A stretch of 27,079 nt of DNA from a virus. How positions within the stretch are numbered: position 1 is the stretch's first letter; each line of letters starts with the position of its first letter. Positions 5,344 to 27,079 of this stretch are shown here, in pieces. The stretch lies in the IMG/VR virus record IMGVR_UViG_3300027834_000281, positions 1-27,079 of that record. The stretch is one strand, 5' to 3'. The notes beneath the pieces were generated by a model. The model was not told where the DNA came from. It did not search any database and saw only the letters and a program-made list of their open reading frames with translations. The translations under genes and the position numbers were made by a program.

Positions 5344-6179
5344 GACACAGCACTCCCGCGTAGCAATCCTCGCATCATGGCCATGCCTTGATCGGCAGTC
5401 ATCGACCCGCCAAAATCGGCATAAGCCTTGGCTTGCGCTTCTTCGAGACTTGCGCGCTCTGCCAATGACGCCGGAGTGAGACGGTCATCGCTTTCGATAG
5501 CTGCCAGTGGCCGCAAGGTTTCTCCACGCGCCGCCCGCTCTACGACACATTCCCGGTTACTGCTGGCGTAGTAGTGCTCAAACGTCTTGCGGTGCCGTTC
5601 AAGCTGGGCATAGGAGGCGCTACGCATCGCCGTCATATCGACATGAAGCGCGGCAGCCGCAACGCCTGGATGAGCGTATGGCTTGCCAGAGAACGCCCGC
5701 TCCTGAACGTTCTTCCATGCTGCCTCTAGGCTCGGCAGGCGTAGGGGCTCCGGGCGCAAACGGCAAACCTTGGCAAATAGCACGGGGCTGTCAGGCGGGA
5801 ATGCCGTATTGCCTTGGGACACAGCCTCTTCAGCCCGCTCGTTTAGCGTCATGAGCCCGCACTGAATATGCACGGTGGACAGGTGGCCAAGAGCACCAAG
5901 CCAGTCGCCACTCGAATCGAAACATGCCCACTCGCCCTCGACCTGCTGCCCCCAGCCGTTCTCGGCACAGCGGCGACGCCAGTGAGAGCCGTAAAGCTTG
6001 CTAAGCGCGTTGAACAGCCAGTCGACAGTGCGTTCAGTCACTGGCGGCATATTCACCGTCGAATACGTTTCCTGGTGGCTCCCCTTCGGCGCTGCCGCCC
6101 TGCTGCTGAGCTCTTCGGCGAGCTTCTTCGGCACTGAGGTTTGCGTATCGCTGGCGAGTAGATCCTTGGCGGCTTGCAT
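5340..6179 (-). CDS. Lambda P-like replication protein (helicase loader)
   Basis: 279 residues. The start chosen is ATG 6179, with AGGAG six bases upstream; the frame is open to 6239 and an ATG at 6050 would nearly remove the overlap with the O-like gene. After a disordered leader comes TERTVDWLFNALSKLYGSHW and AFPPDSPVLFAKVC, matching the layout of lambda P-type proteins (VNGLF..., LPSPGQFVAWC...). Lambda P binds O and host DnaB at the origin, and Hsp70/J-protein/GrpE then free the helicase. Its place directly after the O-like gene supports the call. With this start it overlaps that gene by 146 bases in another frame. Confidence 0.75.
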   Translation of the reverse strand: MQAAKDLLASDTQTSVPKKLAEELSSRAAAPKGSHQETYSTVNMPPVTERTVDWLFNALSKLYGSHWRRRCAENGWGQQVEGEWACFDSSGDWLGALGHLSTVHIQCGLMTLNERAEEAVSQGNTAFPPDSPVLFAKVCRLRPEPLRLPSLEAAWKNVQERAFSGKPYAHPGVAAAALHVDMTAMRSASYAQLERHRKTFEHYYASSNRECVVERAARGETLRPLAAIESDDRLTPASLAERASLEEAQAKAYADFGGSMTADQGMAMMRGLLRGSAVS

Positions 6180-7002
6180 TGCGTGCTCCTGAAGGGGCTT
6201 GTGCGGCATTGGTATTGGCGTTGCGGCGGTTTTCGGCAACCCACTTCGCTAGGCGATCAGCCCAGCCTCCATGGCTTTTACGTTGATTGCTTTCAGAGAA
6301 ATGGCCGGTGTAGTCCGCCAGCTCTTCTAGCGTGGGCTGGGTGTCGGCAGGCAGTCCGCGTCGATAGCAAGCCGCGGACAGTTGTTCAGGGTCAGGTTGC
6401 CAGTCGAGCGTCATCGCGAACTGACCAGCGGGTACAGCTTGTTCTTGGCCTTGGGTTATCGGTTGGCCGTCGTCTCCCAAGGCAGCGGAATCGCCATAAA
6501 GATTTGTCGGAGCTTCGCGCGCACCCGCGAGGGAGGGGGTCTGATCATTGGTACTATGATTCGTCGGATAATTTTCCGACCCTGGTACGGATTTTTTTCC
6601 GACCTGGGTCGGATTATTTTCCGAGGTCGGATTTTTTTCCGACCCTTGGCTAGAGCCCGCGTCATTAGGGGTCGGATTATTTTCCGACCCTTCCAGGCGG
6701 TTCCAAGAAATAGCTTTTGCTGTCAGGCGGATGTAGGTTTTATTGTCGCGACTGGTCATAACGATCAAGCCAGCTTTCGCCAACTGCTTCATCACCCGAT
6801 AGGCCGTGTCAGGCTTATCAGTCAGCAGCGGCATCTCTTTAACGATTTTGGTTTTGCTGATATTGAACCAGGTGTGATCGCCAATCTGCCTTGCATCCGC
6901 CCATGTAGGCACTTGGTGGAGAAACGAAAACAGCATTGCTTGCTGCGCGTTCAGCCCCCACTCCAGCGCCTTTGATTGGTTTATGGTTAACGTGTACTGC
7001 AT
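6034..7002 (-). CDS. Lambda O-like origin-binding initiator with internal iterons
   Basis: 322 residues. ATG 7002-7000 shares its A with the TGA of the antirepressor gene, and GAGGGG lies 9 bases upstream; a TTG just before it is less likely. Residues about 1-100 look like a winged-helix DNA-binding domain (FNISKTKIVKEMPLLTDKPDTAYRVMKQLAKAGLI). Residues about 105-146 are low complexity (GSENNPT, GSEKNPT repeats) because the DNA encodes the iterons. Residues about 196-262 (LDWQPDPEQLSAACYRRGLP, then WADRLAKWVAENRR) resemble the DnaT-type single-strand DNA-binding domain. Known O-type proteins bind iterons in their own gene and recruit P and DnaB. Confidence 0.82.
   Translation of the reverse strand: MQYTLTINQSKALEWGLNAQQAMLFSFLHQVPTWADARQIGDHTWFNISKTKIVKEMPLLTDKPDTAYRVMKQLAKAGLIVMTSRDNKTYIRLTAKAISWNRLEGSENNPTPNDAGSSQGSEKNPTSENNPTQVGKKSVPGSENYPTNHSTNDQTPSLAGAREAPTNLYGDSAALGDDGQPITQGQEQAVPAGQFAMTLDWQPDPEQLSAACYRRGLPADTQPTLEELADYTGHFSESNQRKSHGGWADRLAKWVAENRRNANTNAAQAPSGARNASRQGSTRQRYANLSAEEARRRAQQQGGSAEGEPPGNVFDGEYAASD
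6563..6688. repeat. Putative replication origin: five 18-bp iterons
   Basis: Five copies of GTCGGATWWTTTTCCGAC start at 6563, 6586, 6608, 6626 and 6671 (intervals 23, 22, 18 and 45). Copies at 6626 and 6671 are perfect dyads at the ends (GTCGGA/TCCGAC); the copy at 6586 begins TACGGA and that at 6608 ends CCGAG. They lie inside the O-like gene, as lambda ori does. The copy at 6586 is in a different codon phase from the rest, so it is the DNA that is conserved, not the peptide. AT tracts are built into the repeats. Confidence 0.85.
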
Positions 7003-7832
7003 CAAGCAACACCCCTCATACCGATCATGGCCAAGAGCTCAACAAAGTGGTCTCGGTACCAGTGGGGCTGCGTTTCTCGGGGGGACTGTGGCGATGTCAG
7101 GTTCTTGCCGAAGGGTTCGCCAGTGTCAGTAATGCACCAGAACTGCTTAGGGCCACTGCGACTGCGCCGAGTGCGCTGCTCAAGAATGCCGATAGCGTTT
7201 AACTGCTTGTTGAAAGCCGCCGCGGTTAAAGGAACGCCGTACTCGCTAAGTAAATCTGTAGCAGAGGCCGTGGGCAGGGAGCCCTGGCCCGCTTCCGGCC
7301 CATCTTCGACATAACCGGGCAGCCAAGCGGTGTTCAGCCCATGGGCGCTACCGATCTTCTCCAGCAGCACGACACGGCTGGACGGTGCTGGATTGTTGAG
7401 CGTGCAAAAGCACTCCAGCAGAGCTAGCTCACCGGTTAAACGGCCTTGGTTATGATCGTGGTTATATTTTGTGGCTGGTTCTGTAGCAGGAAGCTGATAC
7501 CCGCCCGTTTTGCGTATCGAAGGCAGAACAACATGGGTTACCCACCGCTTGAAGCGTTTGGCTTCAGGCTTACGACTACGCAGCACGGCTGAGTACAGTC
7601 CGGACTCATTGATTACGATGGCGTCTTGGTTTCCACCAGGGGTCTGCACAATCGACAGACCCTTTTCATCATCGTCAAGGTGGCGGGTCATGGCCGAAGG
7701 CTCGCTGTACTCAAGCGCAGTCGCTACGTCTGACGCCACAAACCATGCTTCACCTTCGCGATCGATTACCCTCACCTGGAGAGCTTCGAACTGAAAAGGT
7801 AACAACTGGACGTTTGCTTTTTCTTCACTCAT
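7002..7832 (-). CDS. BRO-N domain phage antirepressor-like protein
   Basis: 276 residues from ATG 7832 (MSEEKANVQ), with GGAA about 8 bases upstream. The frame extends to 7937 but that segment would cross a strong hairpin and has no ribosome site. Residues about 12-115 form a BRO-N domain (VRVIDREGEAWFVASDVATA, then VINESGLYSAVLRSRKPEAK, then WVTHVVLPSIRKTGGY). The C-terminal part (TDLLSEYGVPLTAAAFNKQL...) looks like a second phage antirepressor/KilA-type module. Such proteins bind and disable repressors. Since the CI-like protein here has no peptidase domain, this could be the induction switch; that is inference. Confidence 0.8.
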   Translation of the reverse strand: MSEEKANVQLLPFQFEALQVRVIDREGEAWFVASDVATALEYSEPSAMTRHLDDDEKGLSIVQTPGGNQDAIVINESGLYSAVLRSRKPEAKRFKRWVTHVVLPSIRKTGGYQLPATEPATKYNHDHNQGRLTGELALLECFCTLNNPAPSSRVVLLEKIGSAHGLNTAWLPGYVEDGPEAGQGSLPTASATDLLSEYGVPLTAAAFNKQLNAIGILEQRTRRSRSGPKQFWCITDTGEPFGKNLTSPQSPRETQPHWYRDHFVELLAMIGMRGVA

Positions 7833-7859
7833 AATGGTTTCCATAGTTTGAAGTGCGAT

Positions 7860-7891
7860 AACGCCCCGCGGTGCCAGCCGATCGGGGCGTT
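7860..7891 (-). other. 9-bp inverted repeat in the cro-antirepressor leader
   Basis: AACGCCCCG at 7860-7868 and its exact complement at 7883-7891 can form a strong hairpin with a 14-base loop in the leftward transcript. It lies between the Cro-like gene and the chosen antirepressor start. No U-tract follows in the leftward direction, so it does not look like an intrinsic terminator. It may be a leader, processing or translational control element. Confidence 0.6.
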
Positions 7892-7937
7892 GTTGTGTCT
7901 GGGCGCTGCTAGTGCCAGAAACGCCCACCTTGCGCAT

Positions 7938-10264: not shown

Positions 10265-10322
10265 ATCAATTCTATAGTTGACTCATTCCGCTTCAGCTCA
10301 TAATATCAACTCATCGGTTGAT
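10265..10322 (+). promoter_or_regulatory. Rightward early promoter with two operators
   Basis: TTGACT (10278-10283) and TAATAT (10301-10306), exactly 17 bases apart, form a sigma-70 promoter. The 18-base dyad at 10265-10282 (ATCAATTCTATAGTTGAC) overlaps the -35. The perfect dyad at 10305-10322 (ATCAACTCATCGGTTGAT) overlaps the -10 and start point. Centres are 40 bases apart. This is the geometry of a lambda PL with two operators, and the half-site ATCAAC matches the site at the repressor's own promoter. Confidence 0.72.
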
Positions 10323-10339: not shown

Positions 10340-10648
10340 ATGAGCTTAACCAAGCGTCAAACAGAGATAGTTGAACTAGTTGCTAGAGGCAACACTGCGC
10401 AAGAAATTGCAGATCAGCTATGTCGCGCTCTCCCTACGGTTCGTCGCCACCTCCAGATTGCTTGCGAGCATGAAGGTGCGCGGAATGCCGCCCATCTCGT
10501 CGCCCTATCAATCAGCCGTGGATTCATCAAGGCGCTATGCCTGTTTCTCGTTGTATCGCTGTGCAATGGCCATATCGATGGCATTCGCCGCAACGCACCG
10601 AAACGCATGACACAGCGCTTTGAAGCAATCCCGGCCATCGTCATCTGA
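10340..10648 (+). CDS. LuxR-type HTH protein with a hydrophobic segment
   Basis: 102 residues, ATG 10340. Residues about 1-58 are a complete LuxR/GerE HTH (LTKRQTEIVELVARGNTAQE, LPTVRRHLQIACEH). A hydrophobic stretch FIKALCLFLVVSLCNG follows (about residues 59-74), long enough to be a membrane segment, then a basic tail. It is the first gene after the two-operator promoter, where lambda places N. It may be an early activator; membrane tethering is inferred from hydrophobicity only. Confidence 0.72.
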   Translation: MSLTKRQTEIVELVARGNTAQEIADQLCRALPTVRRHLQIACEHEGARNAAHLVALSISRGFIKALCLFLVVSLCNGHIDGIRRNAPKRMTQRFEAIPAIVI

Positions 10649-10660
10649 CACCCAGCCGAC

Positions 10661-10706
10661 CGCTCTTTAAAAATCTATCACGCCCTCCCCTTGGCTTTGT
10701 AAGGGG
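10661..10706 (+). promoter_or_regulatory. boxA-like sequence followed by a hairpin (nut-like)
   Basis: CGCTCTTTA at 10661-10669 matches the core of lambda and rRNA-operon boxA (CGCTCTTA, TGCTCTTTA), the NusB/S10 binding RNA. A hairpin follows: CCCCTT (10687-10692), 8-base loop, AAGGGG (10701-10706). It is 13 bases after the LuxR-like stop and upstream of all intrinsic terminators of the rightward operon. The loop does not look like a GNRA boxB, so this may be a non-lambda design. Confidence 0.55.
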
Positions 10707-10891
10707 GCACCATCCGACCTCATGCCGGACAGGTGGACACGTCGACCCCTAGCGGGTTGCTTAGATCAGTTTGGGGCGAACTCCAAATCCTGGGCAAGCG
10801 TCGGCAGACGAGGAGGTAAGCGACTCCACGGCGTGTTAGCAGCACCAATGCCTAGTTCACCAGGCGCGACTCAGATTAAGAGGCGTTCTAA
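10707..10891 (+). other. Non-coding GC-rich stretch with potential RNA structure
   Basis: No credible gene. It contains short dyads such as TTTGG/CCAAA and TCCG/CGGA, so it may fold. It begins after a hairpin similar in position to those of the three elements downstream, but I found no clear long-range partner for its CATCCGACC segment. It could be a diverged fourth copy or a leader for the gene at 10892. Confidence 0.35.
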
Positions 10892-11110
10892 ATGGCTATA
10901 AACACGATCGAAGAAGCCCTGGTGGATATGGGGCATACGCTTCAACAGAAACGCATTACCGAAGCGGTGCGTTTAGCACTGAATGAAGGTAGCGCGTATG
11001 AAATCACCATCACTATAAGCAACGGCCGTAAGAACGGTAACTTCGTCAACATGTATGGCCGTGTAGTGTCGGAGCAACAGCCTTACGGGCGGTTGATTCG
11101 AGTGAAGTAA
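10892..11110 (+). CDS. Small hypothetical phage protein (72 aa)
   Basis: ATG 10892 with AAGAGG upstream. The sequence (TIEEALVDMGHTLQQKRITE, EITITISNGRKNGNFVNMYG) predicts an alpha-beta fold. No family recognised. It sits alone between two non-coding structured stretches at the start of the rightward operon, which makes an early regulatory or host-takeover role possible but unproven. Confidence 0.65.
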   Translation: MAINTIEEALVDMGHTLQQKRITEAVRLALNEGSAYEITITISNGRKNGNFVNMYGRVVSEQQPYGRLIRVK

Positions 11111-11139: not shown

Positions 11140-11172
11140 CGAGATCCGCTGCGTAGTGCGGTGAATAGCGTC

Positions 11173-11442
11173 GCCCTTGGCGCTGAGAATACCAGGGGCC
11201 ATCGGGGTAGGCATCGCGTCTCTTAGGTTATGCAGTCTAGCGAGCGGAAGGCCGCTCAAAGCAGGGTGCGGAGCCGGTGTCTACCCCGATGCAGTGAATG
11301 CGCAGGCTGATGCGAAAGAAGTAGCCGTGCAGCAGTGTACGGAGGGGAAGCCCCAGTGGGGCTGTTTGCGCCCTGAACAGGCGCATGTGCCGGGATCAGC
11401 TCCGGCCACTGCATTAAGTCAGGGCATAGCCCTACTGTGACT
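11173..11442 (+). ncRNA. Structured RNA element, copy 1
   Basis: P1 hairpin: GCCCTTGG (11173-11180) with CCAGGGGC (11192-11199). It is followed at once by ATCGGGGTAG (11201-11210), which pairs perfectly with CTACCCCGAT (11281-11290); six more pairs, some wobble, extend this stem inward. Inside is GAGCGG-AAGG-CCGCTC. A third stem GCAGTG (11291-11296)/CACTGC (11407-11412) and a nested hairpin at 11417-11442 follow. A possible 87-codon frame across this stretch (11177-11440) has no ribosome site. The layout recurs in the next two copies. Function unknown; antitermination or an RNA regulator are candidates. Confidence 0.65.
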
Positions 11443-11481
11443 CACCAACAACAGGCGGTTGAGGCCGTCGAGGATAGTGAA

Positions 11482-11715
11482 ATGATCGAATTGAAAGTAC
11501 GGAAGATTGAGCGCTACGAAGTGACGCGCTACAGCGAGAATATTGAGCGTGCCGAGCATAGCTGCGAGCCAGTGGCCAGTAACTTAACCGCGTCGCAAGC
11601 TGATGACATTGCAGGCGCTATGTTCGAGCGTGCTAACTCGATGGGCATGGTCGCTACGGTGATCTTTTCAGATGGAGCGGGGCTGACCAGCCAGCAGGAG
11701 ACGCCCTCTCTGTAA
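11482..11715 (+). CDS. Small hypothetical phage protein (77 aa)
   Basis: ATG 11482 has GAGG eight bases upstream. The frame is open to a GTG at 11437, but that lies in the terminal hairpin of the RNA element. The product (MIELKVRKIERYEVTRYSEN, ASQADDIAGAMFERANSMGM) looks like a small alpha-beta protein. Family unknown. It separates structured RNA copies 1 and 2. Confidence 0.62.
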   Translation: MIELKVRKIERYEVTRYSENIERAEHSCEPVASNLTASQADDIAGAMFERANSMGMVATVIFSDGAGLTSQQETPSL

Positions 11716-11733
11716 CGCTAACTTAAGTCGGAA

Positions 11734-11912
11734 GCCCGCTCGCCATAAAGGAGCGGGCATCGGGGAGTGTTTTAGCTGTTTGCCCAATGACGCTAACGCG
11801 TATTAAGGGTGAAGCCTAGAGCACTCCACCGATGCAGACGCATCCGGCGCCCTACCTAACCGTTTAACAGCGGGTGATCTAGCGCTCACATCGGGCGTCG
11901 TTAACTCTGCAT
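11734..11912 (+). ncRNA. Structured RNA element, copy 2
   Basis: P1 is a perfect 8-bp hairpin GCCCGCTC (11734-11741)/GAGCGGGC (11751-11758) with loop GCCATAAAG. P2 starts in the next base: ATCGGGGAGTG (11759-11769) pairs with CACTCC-A-CCGAT (11822-11833, one bulged A) and continues TTTTAG (11770-11775)/CTAGAG (11816-11821). The apex carries CCC/GGG and ACGC-TAAC-GCGT. GACGC (about 11837)/GCGTC (about 11896) gives a third stem, in the same place as in copy 1. No open frame with a ribosome site is present. Confidence 0.7.
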
Positions 11913-11931
11913 CAATTTGTGTGCTGGGAAA

Positions 11932-12060
11932 CCCACTCGCCCTAAAGGAGTGGGCATCGGAAAGAGCGCGGGCATGCAAAACCGAATTGGCCCGTGTGAT
12001 TCACCCAGCCTAATCCCAATAGGCGCACAGTCGGGGCGAAGGCCGCTCTTTTTCCGATGC
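11932..12060 (+). ncRNA. Structured RNA element, copy 3
   Basis: P1: CCCACTC (11932-11938)/GAGTGGG (11948-11954), loop GCCCTAAAG, 8 of 9 loop bases as in copy 2. P2: ATCGGAAAGAGCG (11956-11968) with its complement at 12044-12058, two bulged Ts. Compared with copy 2, a G-C pair of P1 becomes A-T, and two G-C pairs of P2 (GG/CC) become A-T (AA/TT). These compensatory changes are direct evidence for conserved RNA structure. A terminator follows 20 bases later. Confidence 0.72.
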
Positions 12061-12080: not shown

Positions 12081-12103
12081 GCTCGCTTATCGCGGGCTTT
12101 TTT
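12081..12103 (+). terminator. Intrinsic terminator after the structured RNA cluster
   Basis: GCTCGC (12081-12086) pairs with GCGGGC (12092-12097, one G-U), loop TTATC, followed by six Ts. It would stop transcripts after the RNA elements unless antitermination occurs. Confidence 0.8.
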
Positions 12104-12131: not shown

Positions 12132-12305
12132 ATGGCTAAGAAAAATACCAACACAGTCAATCCAGTGGGCGCGCTAAGTCAGCGAGAGCGTGAGCGGCAA
12201 GTCGACGAAAACGCCTCAAACCGTTATCGGCTTCGCACCGTCATTGACCAGTGGAAGCAAGATCGTCGCTTTGAAAATTCGCAGAAAGAGGTATGGGAGC
12301 TATGA
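12132..12305 (+). CDS. Small basic hypothetical protein (57 aa)
   Basis: ATG 12132 has a consensus ribosome site (AAGGAGATCGT). The product is basic and helical (LSQRERERQVDENASNRYRL, RTVIDQWKQDRRFENSQKEV). It is the first gene after the terminator and overlaps the next gene by ATGA. No family recognised; the charge suggests nucleic-acid or protein binding. Confidence 0.7.
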   Translation: MAKKNTNTVNPVGALSQRERERQVDENASNRYRLRTVIDQWKQDRRFENSQKEVWEL

Positions 12306-24020: not shown

Positions 24021-24221
24021 ATGGGCACACCCAGCCCCAATAGCCCAAACGCTCTATGGGCCAAGCATGGCTACGAAATTGAGCGAATCCCCCGCCGTGG
24101 AAGCGGTGGCCACCATCGTATTATTCGCGACCCTAGTGGTCGCGTTGTGCTTCAGGACGCTGCCCACGCAGACGAGCTGAAGTGGATCAACGACAACATT
24201 GAGACCATCCCCAATGATTGA
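24021..24221 (+). CDS. Small hypothetical protein (66 aa)
   Basis: ATG 24021 has GGAGG seven bases upstream. The motif RRGSGGHHRIIRDPSGRVVL is superficially like HicA toxins but lacks the HicA fold order and any HicB partner. Its 3' end overlaps the methyltransferase gene by 8 bases. Confidence 0.62.
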   Translation: MGTPSPNSPNALWAKHGYEIERIPRRGSGGHHRIIRDPSGRVVLQDAAHADELKWINDNIETIPND

Positions 24222-25911
24222 ACGGAAAGAGGTGAAGCACTTCCACTTGTTTTGTGGGTTGGGTGGTGGTGCTAAAGGCTTTAATCGCGGGCACGCCCGT
24301 GTAGGCAACATGGAGGCGCGCTTTCGCTGCATCGGCGGTATCGACGTAGACGCGGGTGCGATCGCTGACTTTCAGCGCCTTTCAGGTGCGCCCGGTACCG
24401 CCATGGACTTGTTCGATCGGGAACAGTACCAGGCCTTTCACGACAAGGCCCCGCCTGCTGACTGGCGGGAAGCGACCCCGGCAGATATTCAAGCCGCTGC
24501 CGGTGGCGAAAACCCCAACATCATCTTCCTGTCAGCGCCGTGCAAAGGCTTTAGCGGCCTGCTGTCGCAATCGCGCAGCACCACGCCCAAGTATCAGGCG
24601 CTTAACAAGTTAACGCTTCGCGGCATGTGGCTGGCCCTGGAGGCCTTCGCCGACAACCCGCCAGAGCTGATTATCTTTGAAAACGTGCCGCGCATCGCTA
24701 ATCGTGGGCGCCCGCTACTCGACAAGATCATGGCAATGCTTGAGCACTATGGGTACCACACGGCAGAAACAACGCATGATTGCGGCGAGCTTGGCGGGCT
24801 AGCCCAGTCCCGCAAGCGCTTTCTGCTGGTGGCCAGGCATGCCGAGAAGGTGCCGCCGTTCCTGTATGAGCCGGTGAAGCGCCCGCTTCGCGCCGTAGGT
24901 GACGTGCTAGGTGATATGCCGACGCCTGGTGACGAACTCGCCGGCGCAATGCACCGCATTCCTCGTTTGCAGTGGAAAACCTGGGTACGCCTCGCCTTCG
25001 TTGAGGCCGGGAGTGATTGGCGATCGCTTAACCGCCTAGGCGTGCAAGACGGTTATTTAAGCGACTACCTGATTGTTCCTGAATATCGCAGCGGTTACAT
25101 GGGCGTCAATAAGTGGGCCGAATCCATGGGCACTGTCGCTGGTCGCAATACGCCAAGTAACGGCGCGTTCTCGGTTGCGGATCCACGCTTTGAGCAATCG
25201 GCCCGCTGGAAAGATGGTCAAGCCTACGGTGTTCGCCGCTGGGATGGACCTACCGGCGCTATCACTGGACAGCAATCACCAGGCCAAGGCGCGTTTTCAG
25301 TCGCTGACCCGAGACGCAAAGGCCCAACGTATGGCAAGTACGCCATTACGCCGTGGGATAAATCATCTGGGACAGTGATATCAGGTAGCACTACAGGCCA
25401 AGGCGCTTACGGTGTCGCAGATCCACGCCCTAACCTGAATCGCTCAAAAGGCGACCACTATCTAACAGCAGGTCACTACGGCGTTGTGCCTTGGCAGTCT
25501 GGTTGCGGCGCGGTATCGGCATTCGCTGGTCACGACAACGGCAAATGGTCAGTAGCCGACCCTCGCTTGCCCGAAGCTAACGACAAAGTAGTGGCCGTCA
25601 TCCGTGCCCTGGACGGCACTTGGCACCGCCCTTTCACCACACTGGAACTTGCTGCCCTGCAAGGCCTGGTTGACCCCTGCGAACACTTTGAGCTTGAAGG
25701 GCTAAGCGACAGCGCTTGGCGCGAACGCATTGGAAACGCCGTGCCTGCCCCCGCCGCTGAAGCTATTGCAGGCGTCATGGGTACCACGCTGTTACTCGCT
25801 TGGAGCGGTGAAACCTTCGCCCTTGGCGCTACGCCCATTTGGGTAAGGCAAGTCGCTGCAGGGTTAGCCCTAAAGCAGCCCAACAAACCTACTTCAAACG
25901 CCGCCCATTGA
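24214..25911 (+). CDS. Phage DNA C5-cytosine methyltransferase (Dcm-type) with repeated recognition region
   Basis: 565 residues, ATG 24214 inside the end of the previous gene; no strong ribosome site, so probably coupled. Motif I HLFCGLGGGAKGF (about 11-22), motif IV APCKGFSG with catalytic Cys110, motif VI ENVP (Glu156), motif VIII QSRKR (198-202), and motif X RIGNAVPAP near 506. It transfers methyl from S-adenosylmethionine to cytosine C5. Between motifs VIII and X are four repeats ending SVADPR or GVADPR (about 300-451), where the target-recognition domain lies. No partner nuclease is present, so defence evasion is likely. Confidence 0.9.
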   Translation: MIERKEVKHFHLFCGLGGGAKGFNRGHARVGNMEARFRCIGGIDVDAGAIADFQRLSGAPGTAMDLFDREQYQAFHDKAPPADWREATPADIQAAAGGENPNIIFLSAPCKGFSGLLSQSRSTTPKYQALNKLTLRGMWLALEAFADNPPELIIFENVPRIANRGRPLLDKIMAMLEHYGYHTAETTHDCGELGGLAQSRKRFLLVARHAEKVPPFLYEPVKRPLRAVGDVLGDMPTPGDELAGAMHRIPRLQWKTWVRLAFVEAGSDWRSLNRLGVQDGYLSDYLIVPEYRSGYMGVNKWAESMGTVAGRNTPSNGAFSVADPRFEQSARWKDGQAYGVRRWDGPTGAITGQQSPGQGAFSVADPRRKGPTYGKYAITPWDKSSGTVISGSTTGQGAYGVADPRPNLNRSKGDHYLTAGHYGVVPWQSGCGAVSAFAGHDNGKWSVADPRLPEANDKVVAVIRALDGTWHRPFTTLELAALQGLVDPCEHFELEGLSDSAWRERIGNAVPAPAAEAIAGVMGTTLLLAWSGETFALGATPIWVRQVAAGLALKQPNKPTSNAAH

Positions 25912-25939: not shown

Positions 25940-27079
25940 ATGTGGTTCAAAAACATTCAACTCTACCGTCTGCACGATCAGCAACTACTTAGCCCAGAGC
26001 AAATGGAGGCCATATTAGAAGAAGGCCGAGCCAAGCCGCTAGGCGATGCCGATGCGCGCCGCATTGGATGGAGCGCCCCCGCTGGCCGCATAGGGAGCGG
26101 TCAGATGATGCACGAAATACAAGGCCAGCGCCTGTTGAGCGCGCTACGTCAAGAGCGCCTGCTCCCCGCGCCGGTCGTGAAAGAAGAAGTTGAAGAGCGT
26201 GTAGCGGATATCGAGGCTGCCGAAGGTCGCAAAGTAACGCGGAGAGAAAAGACCGCCTTGAAAGAACAGGTGACCGAAGAGCTTATGCCACGCGCCTTTG
26301 TGCGGAGCCATAAAATTGACCTTTGGTGGGATACCCAGCGAGGCCTGATAGGTATTGACGCCTCTAGCCGAAGCCGCGCTGAGGATGTGCTTGATTTGCT
26401 GCGCGAGACCCTGGGGAGCCTCAAAGTTACGCCACTGGCTACGCAATCGCTGCCCATTCGGGCCATGACAACGTGGTTAGAGGATACCGCCAGCCGACCT
26501 TCCGACCTACAGCTAGGCGATAACTTCGAGCTGAAAGCAAAAGGCGATGATGGCGTAGTGCGCGCACGACAGGTGGACCTCGACAGTGACGAAATGCAGC
26601 AGCTACTCGAAAGCGGGCGCCAAGCTAGCAAGCTAGCGCTCTCGCTTGAGGGTCAACTGTCCTTTGTCATGAACGATGACCTGTCACTGAAGTCGCTGCG
26701 CTTTGGCGACGCGCTGATTGAAGAGGCTGACCATTCTGACGATGGTGACGATGCCCTTGCTCGCCTGGAAACGGACTTCATTATTATGGCTGGGGCGCTG
26801 GGCAACTCGGTAGACCGAATCATTGAGTGGCTTGGAGGCGAAACAGTTAGAACGGAAGCGTCAGAACCGCAGTCCTCTCCGAACGAGGACGAAGATGCCC
26901 TCTATCCGCAAGCAGTGGCCTTTGTGACCGAAACCCGCAAAGCCTCCATGTCAGCAATCCAGCGGCAGTTCAAAATTGGCTACAACCGCGCAGCGCGCCT
27001 GGTAGAGACCATGGAGCAAAACGGGCTGATATCGCCGATGAATTCCAGTGGCCAGCGTACTGTGCTTCAAGTCGCCTAA
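25940..27079 (+). CDS. rdgC: RdgC recombination-associated protein fused to an FtsK-gamma-like domain
   Basis: 379 residues. The N-terminal ~300 match RdgC: MWFKNIQLYRLHDQQLLSPE, GWSAPAGRIG, EIQGQRLLSALRQERLLPAP, RAFVRSHKIDLWWDTQRGLI, PIRAMTTWL, QLSFVMNDDLSLKSLRF. RdgC is a ring-shaped dimer that binds DNA and restrains RecA. After an acidic linker, residues 319-379 (DALYPQAVAFVTETRKASMS, QFKIGYNRAARLVETMEQNG) match the FtsK gamma winged helix, which in FtsK reads KOPS sequences. Ordinary RdgC is about 300 residues. The stop is the last codon of the window. Confidence 0.85.
   Translation: MWFKNIQLYRLHDQQLLSPEQMEAILEEGRAKPLGDADARRIGWSAPAGRIGSGQMMHEIQGQRLLSALRQERLLPAPVVKEEVEERVADIEAAEGRKVTRREKTALKEQVTEELMPRAFVRSHKIDLWWDTQRGLIGIDASSRSRAEDVLDLLRETLGSLKVTPLATQSLPIRAMTTWLEDTASRPSDLQLGDNFELKAKGDDGVVRARQVDLDSDEMQQLLESGRQASKLALSLEGQLSFVMNDDLSLKSLRFGDALIEEADHSDDGDDALARLETDFIIMAGALGNSVDRIIEWLGGETVRTEASEPQSSPNEDEDALYPQAVAFVTETRKASMSAIQRQFKIGYNRAARLVETMEQNGLISPMNSSGQRTVLQVA

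Follow-up and report, generated by a model that had tools for sequence, protein, structure and literature searches.

The early leader of a phage, available in IMG/VR as a virus record spanning 27,079 bases (the window, meaning the whole stretch of DNA analysed), contains three copies of an arrangement in which a hairpin, P1, is followed directly by the 5' arm of a long-range stem, P2. This raises the question of whether the arrangement is a structured RNA and, if so, what it does for the phage.

A leader with three copies of a two-stem element

All features of the leader lie on the + strand. A putative PR-type promoter (TTGACT-17-TAATAT, 10278..10306; a consensus scan match only) is situated upstream of an HTH regulator gene (10340..10648; Pfam LuxR-type GerE HTH, phrog_3282) that occupies the Cro/CII position. 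This gene is followed by a rRNA-type, boxA-like sequence of 11 bases, GCTCTTTAAAA (10662..10672), the sole such site in the window, and immediately 3' of boxA by a second two-hairpin module (10686..10735), which folds both in the window and in L002, a truncated close relative. Between boxA and copy 1 lies a small conserved gene encoding 72 aa (10892..11110), and slightly upstream of copy 1 is a further hairpin, P0 (CCGC-TGCGTAGT-GCGG, 11146..11161). Fold prediction places a multibranch module with the closing stem TGCAGTG/CACTGCA at 11290..11414. Copy 3 ends 22 nt before a predicted intrinsic terminator (GCTCGC-TTATC-GCGGGC-TTTTTT, 12081..12103), in line with the first-pass annotation, which had placed its end next to a terminator, and the first early gene 3' of the terminator (12132..12305) encodes a basic protein of 57 aa that belongs to no Pfam family.

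Elsewhere in the window are RecE-like and RecT-like recombination genes, a C-5 cytosine DNA methylase of 570 aa (24199-25911) and, on the - strand among leftward genes, a BRO-N domain protein (7002-7937). A gene that reaches the window end (25940-27079) fuses RdgC (Pfam 1-301) to FtsK_gamma (316-376), an unusual pairing.

Direct reading located the three element copies at 11173-11291, 11734-11834 and 11931-12060, with CATCGG directly 3' of P1 and pairing with CCGATG, and with P2 spans of 92, 77 and 105 nt. Copy 1 consists of P1 at 11173-11199 and P2 arms at 11200-11216 and 11275-11291; copy 2 of P1 at 11734-11758 and P2 arms starting at 11758 and ending at 11834, with a bulged A in the 3' arm; and copy 3 of P1 at 11932-11954 and P2 arms at 11955-11971 and 12043-12059, with a possible 2-nt bulge in the 3' arm, 6 bp up. 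P1 can additionally be closed by the C of CATCGG in copies 2 and 3. These same two copies differ by a G-C to A-T change in P1 (CCCGCTC/GAGCGGG vs CCCACTC/GAGTGGG) and, in P2, by GG/CC to AA/TT, both sides having changed. The first-pass annotation had placed the copies and described these differences correctly; the bulges, and the P1 loop of copy 1 (GCGCTGAGAATAC), which differs from GCCMTAAAG, refine its description. Copies 1 and 2 do flank a small ORF (11437..11715), for which similarity and family searches recovered no relative. Within the window, copies 2 and 3 find close DNA matches to their 34-nt core only in one another.

When the copies were excised, both stems appeared in the minimum-energy folds, with z-scores against dinucleotide shuffles of -5.1, -6.3 and -2.9 for copies 1, 2 and 3, respectively. 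P2 of all three copies is also present in longer leader folds, and P1 of copy 3 is absent from a 411-nt fold.

The element recurs in related phages

Relatives were gathered with the HTH protein, the downstream DUF1351 protein, the small leader protein and parts of the element itself as queries, yielding 14 further natural copies in nine other phages and a total of 17 with the window. Elements of the same build occur three times in L003, twice each in L067 and L094, and once each in L005, L006, L011 (a prophage of Ectothiorhodospira mobilis DSM 237), L068, L087 and L088, and L004 has one that lacks CATCG. P2-like stems that lack an obvious P1 of their own lie directly 3' of the full element in L011 (6937-7010) and L068 (6400-6499), and the truncated L002 has kept P1 of copy 1 and the 5' part of copy 3, having lost the middle.

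The phages in this group are temperate and most of them, we would guess, infect Halomonas-like halophiles. E. mobilis was the sole match both among 369 gammaproteobacterial genomes and among 47 genomes of its own order, and 36 genomes of another order returned none; these counts are lower bounds because members with long P2 spans can escape the search. In nucleotide searches, the window leader matched nothing in phage and plasmid collections, nor did the L094 leader find a match; the L003 leader matched only the unrelated TerB gene within it (5528-5971, TerB-like tellurite resistance), which sits between boxA and the P1-P2 copies. Weak matches in Pseudomonas phage CF24a (L072 3923-3974, E = 0.04-0.06) and in Synechococcus phage Ssp-JY37 were judged to be due to chance.

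A common layout recurs across these phages: a promoter, usually the HTH gene, boxA, P1-P2 copies, an intrinsic terminator and then early genes. The HTH gene has relatives in L003, L004, L005, L011 and L067-L069, and by eye the promoter-like regions upstream of it in L003 and L011 resemble that of the window. The small genes within the leader vary from phage to phage: that for the 72-aa protein has relatives in L011, L068, L069, L092 and L093, and lies within the leader in some phages only. In several relatives, small genes like that for the window's 57-aa protein occupy the same place (by eye). Other parts of the leader also recur: L087 has a module similar to the two-hairpin module of the window, in which CACC/GGTG corresponds to CGCC/GGCG in L011 (by eye, unscored); the closing stem of the multibranch module reads TGCGGTG/CACCGCA at the equivalent place in L067 (by eye); and L068 keeps the loop of P0 (TGCGYAGT) on a different stem. 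Within the L067 leader, positions 5990-6045 resemble the 3' half of a tRNA (GGTTCGAATCC), and ARAGORN calls no tRNA there.

Copy number, copy order and leader length (approximately 300 to 1440 nt) differ among phages, and genes are inserted between copies. This variability bears on the possibility that the leader acts in trans as a small RNA whose 3' end is the terminator and whose folded body is P1-P2. The extensive structure of the leader, its largely non-coding content and its own terminator would fit such an RNA, but the elements also differ in sequence among phages and their P1 loops share no target-like sequence. Because copy number, order and leader length vary while the position in cis before the terminator is kept, we consider a trans-acting RNA very unlikely.

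Covariation points to a structured RNA

To the 17 copies, we applied an alignment made by hand, with loops trimmed to constant length and stems free of gaps, a procedure that favours the structure: 93.8% of pair cells were paired, and 20 of the 21 pairs showed double-sided changes. The corresponding values were 96.4%, with 13 pairs doubly changed, for the first eight copies, and 91.5%, with double changes in 20 of 21 pairs, for the nine copies outside the first model. Not one of 500 shuffles for each copy set (8, 17 and 9) matched the observed pairing and covariation, and sliding the partners by 1-3 columns reduced pairing to 35-50% over the copy sets (39-48% for the set of 17). Moreover, L087 and L088 were fetched solely by a pattern for the P2 5' arm and interior, yet pairing is retained in both the P1 stems and the 3' arms of these two. 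The homologues thus covary, strongly supporting the earlier proposal of a structured RNA with compensatory changes.

Across the copies, P1 is a hairpin of 7-8 bp separated by 0-1 unpaired nt from P2, which forms a long, near-perfect helix of 12-25 bp spanning 53-152 nt. The P1 loops and P2 interior are highly variable. The P2 base, CATCG/CGATG, is near-invariant, with paired replacements in L003 (CATCC/GGATG) and L004 (TTTGA/TCAAA) and a C-A opposition at its third pair in two copies. Over the 17 copies, G-U pairs outnumber A-C oppositions by 28 to 7, which identifies the RNA of the + strand as the functional one; owing to this strand bias, a role at the DNA level, such as a replication origin, was dropped.

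We also scanned both strands of ten leader regions with a sequence-blind descriptor consisting of a hairpin and an immediately following long-range stem. It returned 16 matches on the + strand, including one overlap artefact (L011 6907), and a single match on the - strand that mirrors a strong stem, against a mean of 0.15 matches per set of dinucleotide shuffles. When extended to whole loci (175 kb, both strands), the search gave more than 12 weaker matches, mostly in coding DNA and nearly all scoring below 56, so the descriptor alone is unspecific; its strong matches concentrate in leaders.

No conserved protein coding across the elements was found in relatives: tblastn gave only four weak matches, on both strands, as expected from DNA-level similarity, and a coding role was dropped. 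A type III toxin-antitoxin repeat was likewise rejected, since the copies are neither arranged as near-identical tandem repeats nor followed by a toxin. The first-pass annotation had recognized no known RNA family, and an Rfam search agreed, with no credible match for P1-P2 at either gathering or relaxed thresholds; HK022 put itself has no Rfam match either.

boxA and a terminator accompany the element

Besides the window, ten leaders contain a whole or partial CATCG-type copy, and each carries a boxA (GCTCTTTAACA, no more than one mismatch) at the corresponding position, so that boxA is present in 11 of 11 leaders of this kind, a small count and one that does not represent independent events because the phages are related. 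Sister phages L069, L092 and L093 have the same HTH gene and lack boxA, P1-P2 and the terminator at that place, and in L004, with its P2 lacking CATCG, boxA is degenerate and the terminator absent from that place. Folding of leaders revealed hairpins 3' of boxA, among them a further pair that covaries by eye between L088 (8311-8410) and L003 (5345-5445): CCCAGC/GCTGGG vs CCTAGC/GCTAGG, and ACCGA/TCGGT vs ACCTGA/TCAGGT.

The joint presence with boxA and terminator, like the near-invariant CATCG/CGATG and the fixed P1-P2 junction, would go unexplained if P1-P2 were an RNase III or stability element, or a spacer insulating the small leader genes, whose stems protect or process early mRNA. The length and near-perfection of the P2 helix would suit such a role, as would some copies whose ends lie approximately 20 nt upstream of a ribosome-binding site (L003 6224 and L094 2707), and on balance we allow it a small chance.

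In 7 of the 10 leaders in which the last P2 has a terminator within reach, the two are separated by 22-46 nt; the distance is approximately 77 nt in L067 and 140 nt in L087, and the two lie far apart in L068. Such proximity might indicate an attenuator, in which formation of the adjacent terminator is governed by the binding of a ligand or protein to P1-P2. However, by eye we saw no alternative pairing between P1-P2 and the terminator that is shared among leaders, and of the eight leaders folded, most showed the last P2 alongside the terminator hairpin in a single minimum-energy fold, indicating that P2 need not exclude the terminator. Two to three copies per leader would also be unusual for a sensor; an attenuator therefore strikes us as highly improbable.

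Comparison with known antitermination systems

The put RNAs suppress termination through the zinc-binding domain of the RNA polymerase beta' subunit, without a phage protein, and contain a triplex in stem I (PMC9378689). The likeness to HK022 put suggested by the first-pass annotation extends to build and operon position, and stops short of family membership. As in put, two stem-loops stand in series with at most one unpaired nt between them (PMC9378689); as with putR, the element follows the first regulator gene of a PR-type operon; and as in HK022, HK639, phiEt88 and O276, it is part of an early phage transcript with terminators downstream. From the residues named in PMC9378689, we located putL in HK022 with 28 of 28 matches, and its sequence is identical to the annotated putL of phage O276, whose putR lies between cro and cII. 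A covariance model (R3) of eight put RNAs scored 91 bits for putL and 57 bits for putR of HK022, but its best match in the window and relatives had E = 3.6 and fell outside the elements, and models of the P1-P2 copies, run in turn on the put phages, matched nothing. Because the models match in neither direction, P1-P2 does not belong to the put family. P1-P2 also lacks the conserved put core, GGCGGG..GGATGAACGGCAAT; has a longer and more regular P2 (53-152 nt span, vs 37 nt for put stem II) with the CATCG/CGATG base; and occurs in up to three copies per leader in the company of boxA.

This boxA resembles those of lambda nut and rRNA antitermination leaders, with a similar sequence in an early leader, after the gene in cro position and with hairpins next to it. 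Unlike in lambda nut, no lambda-type small boxB was recognised here, and the covarying element is much larger and located up to approximately 1.3 kb 3' of boxA. P1-P2 might therefore be a docking site for a phage antitermination protein, comparable to nut and boxB, at which boxA and P1-P2 would assemble an N-type protein with Nus factors. The boxA at the lambda nutR position in every such leader would accord with this, as would the small basic protein encoded 3' of the terminator in the window, L006, L011, L067 and L088. But by eye this small gene was not seen there in L003 or L094 and is cut short in L087, with P1-P2 kept in all three; known N families had no match among the early proteins scanned; and P1 loops and P2 interiors vary widely, unlike a single protein-binding loop. 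We regard a nut-like docking site as unlikely, with a modest minority chance.

EAR and the LoaP-dependent antiterminator RNAs of Firmicutes are likewise structured RNAs that act in cis on elongation, and they belong to other phyla and have structures other than that of P1-P2, which, as noted, no Rfam family matches.

A candidate cis-acting antiterminator

The structure and context of P1-P2 are established by comparison of the sequences, and it is from its build, its position and its joint presence with boxA and a terminator that we infer a role in antitermination. We put the probability that P1-P2 represents a new family of cis-acting antiterminator RNA, operating with or without host Nus proteins, at roughly 0.55, and such antitermination would probably be Nus-assisted. 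By analogy to put, the element most likely permits RNA polymerase to read through the adjacent terminator: While polymerase is leaving the promoter, Nus proteins would be recruited by the boxA of the nascent RNA, and each P1-P2 would fold behind the polymerase and, like put RNA in HK022, dock on the elongation complex close to the RNA exit channel, thereby blocking the terminator hairpin. Only polymerases coming from the phage early promoter would then read through into the recombination and replication genes, and stray transcription would be stopped at the terminator.

The variable copy number and spacers suit a module that acts in cis. Against this proposal, copies 1 and 2 of the window as well as L003 6132-6224 do not adjoin a terminator, P2 exceeds put stem II in length and regularity, and a constitutive antiterminator located right before a terminator leaves the purpose of that terminator in need of explanation; as in HK022, this purpose may be insulation. 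Antitermination by P1-P2 may also need a phage or host protein.

To our knowledge, put and a few close relatives supply most of the known cases of RNA-only antitermination. Somewhat short of even odds, and offered tentatively, is the broader possibility that P1-P2 is a second, independently evolved class of RNA that makes polymerase resistant to terminators, deployed as an array of one to three copies with boxA-recruited Nus proteins in phages outside the lambdoid group. If so, an unrelated RNA sharing the build and position of put would mean that this mechanism evolved more than once, would provide a second RNA for comparison on RNA polymerase, and would help to annotate the leaders of these phages, which lie beyond the reach of protein gene callers.
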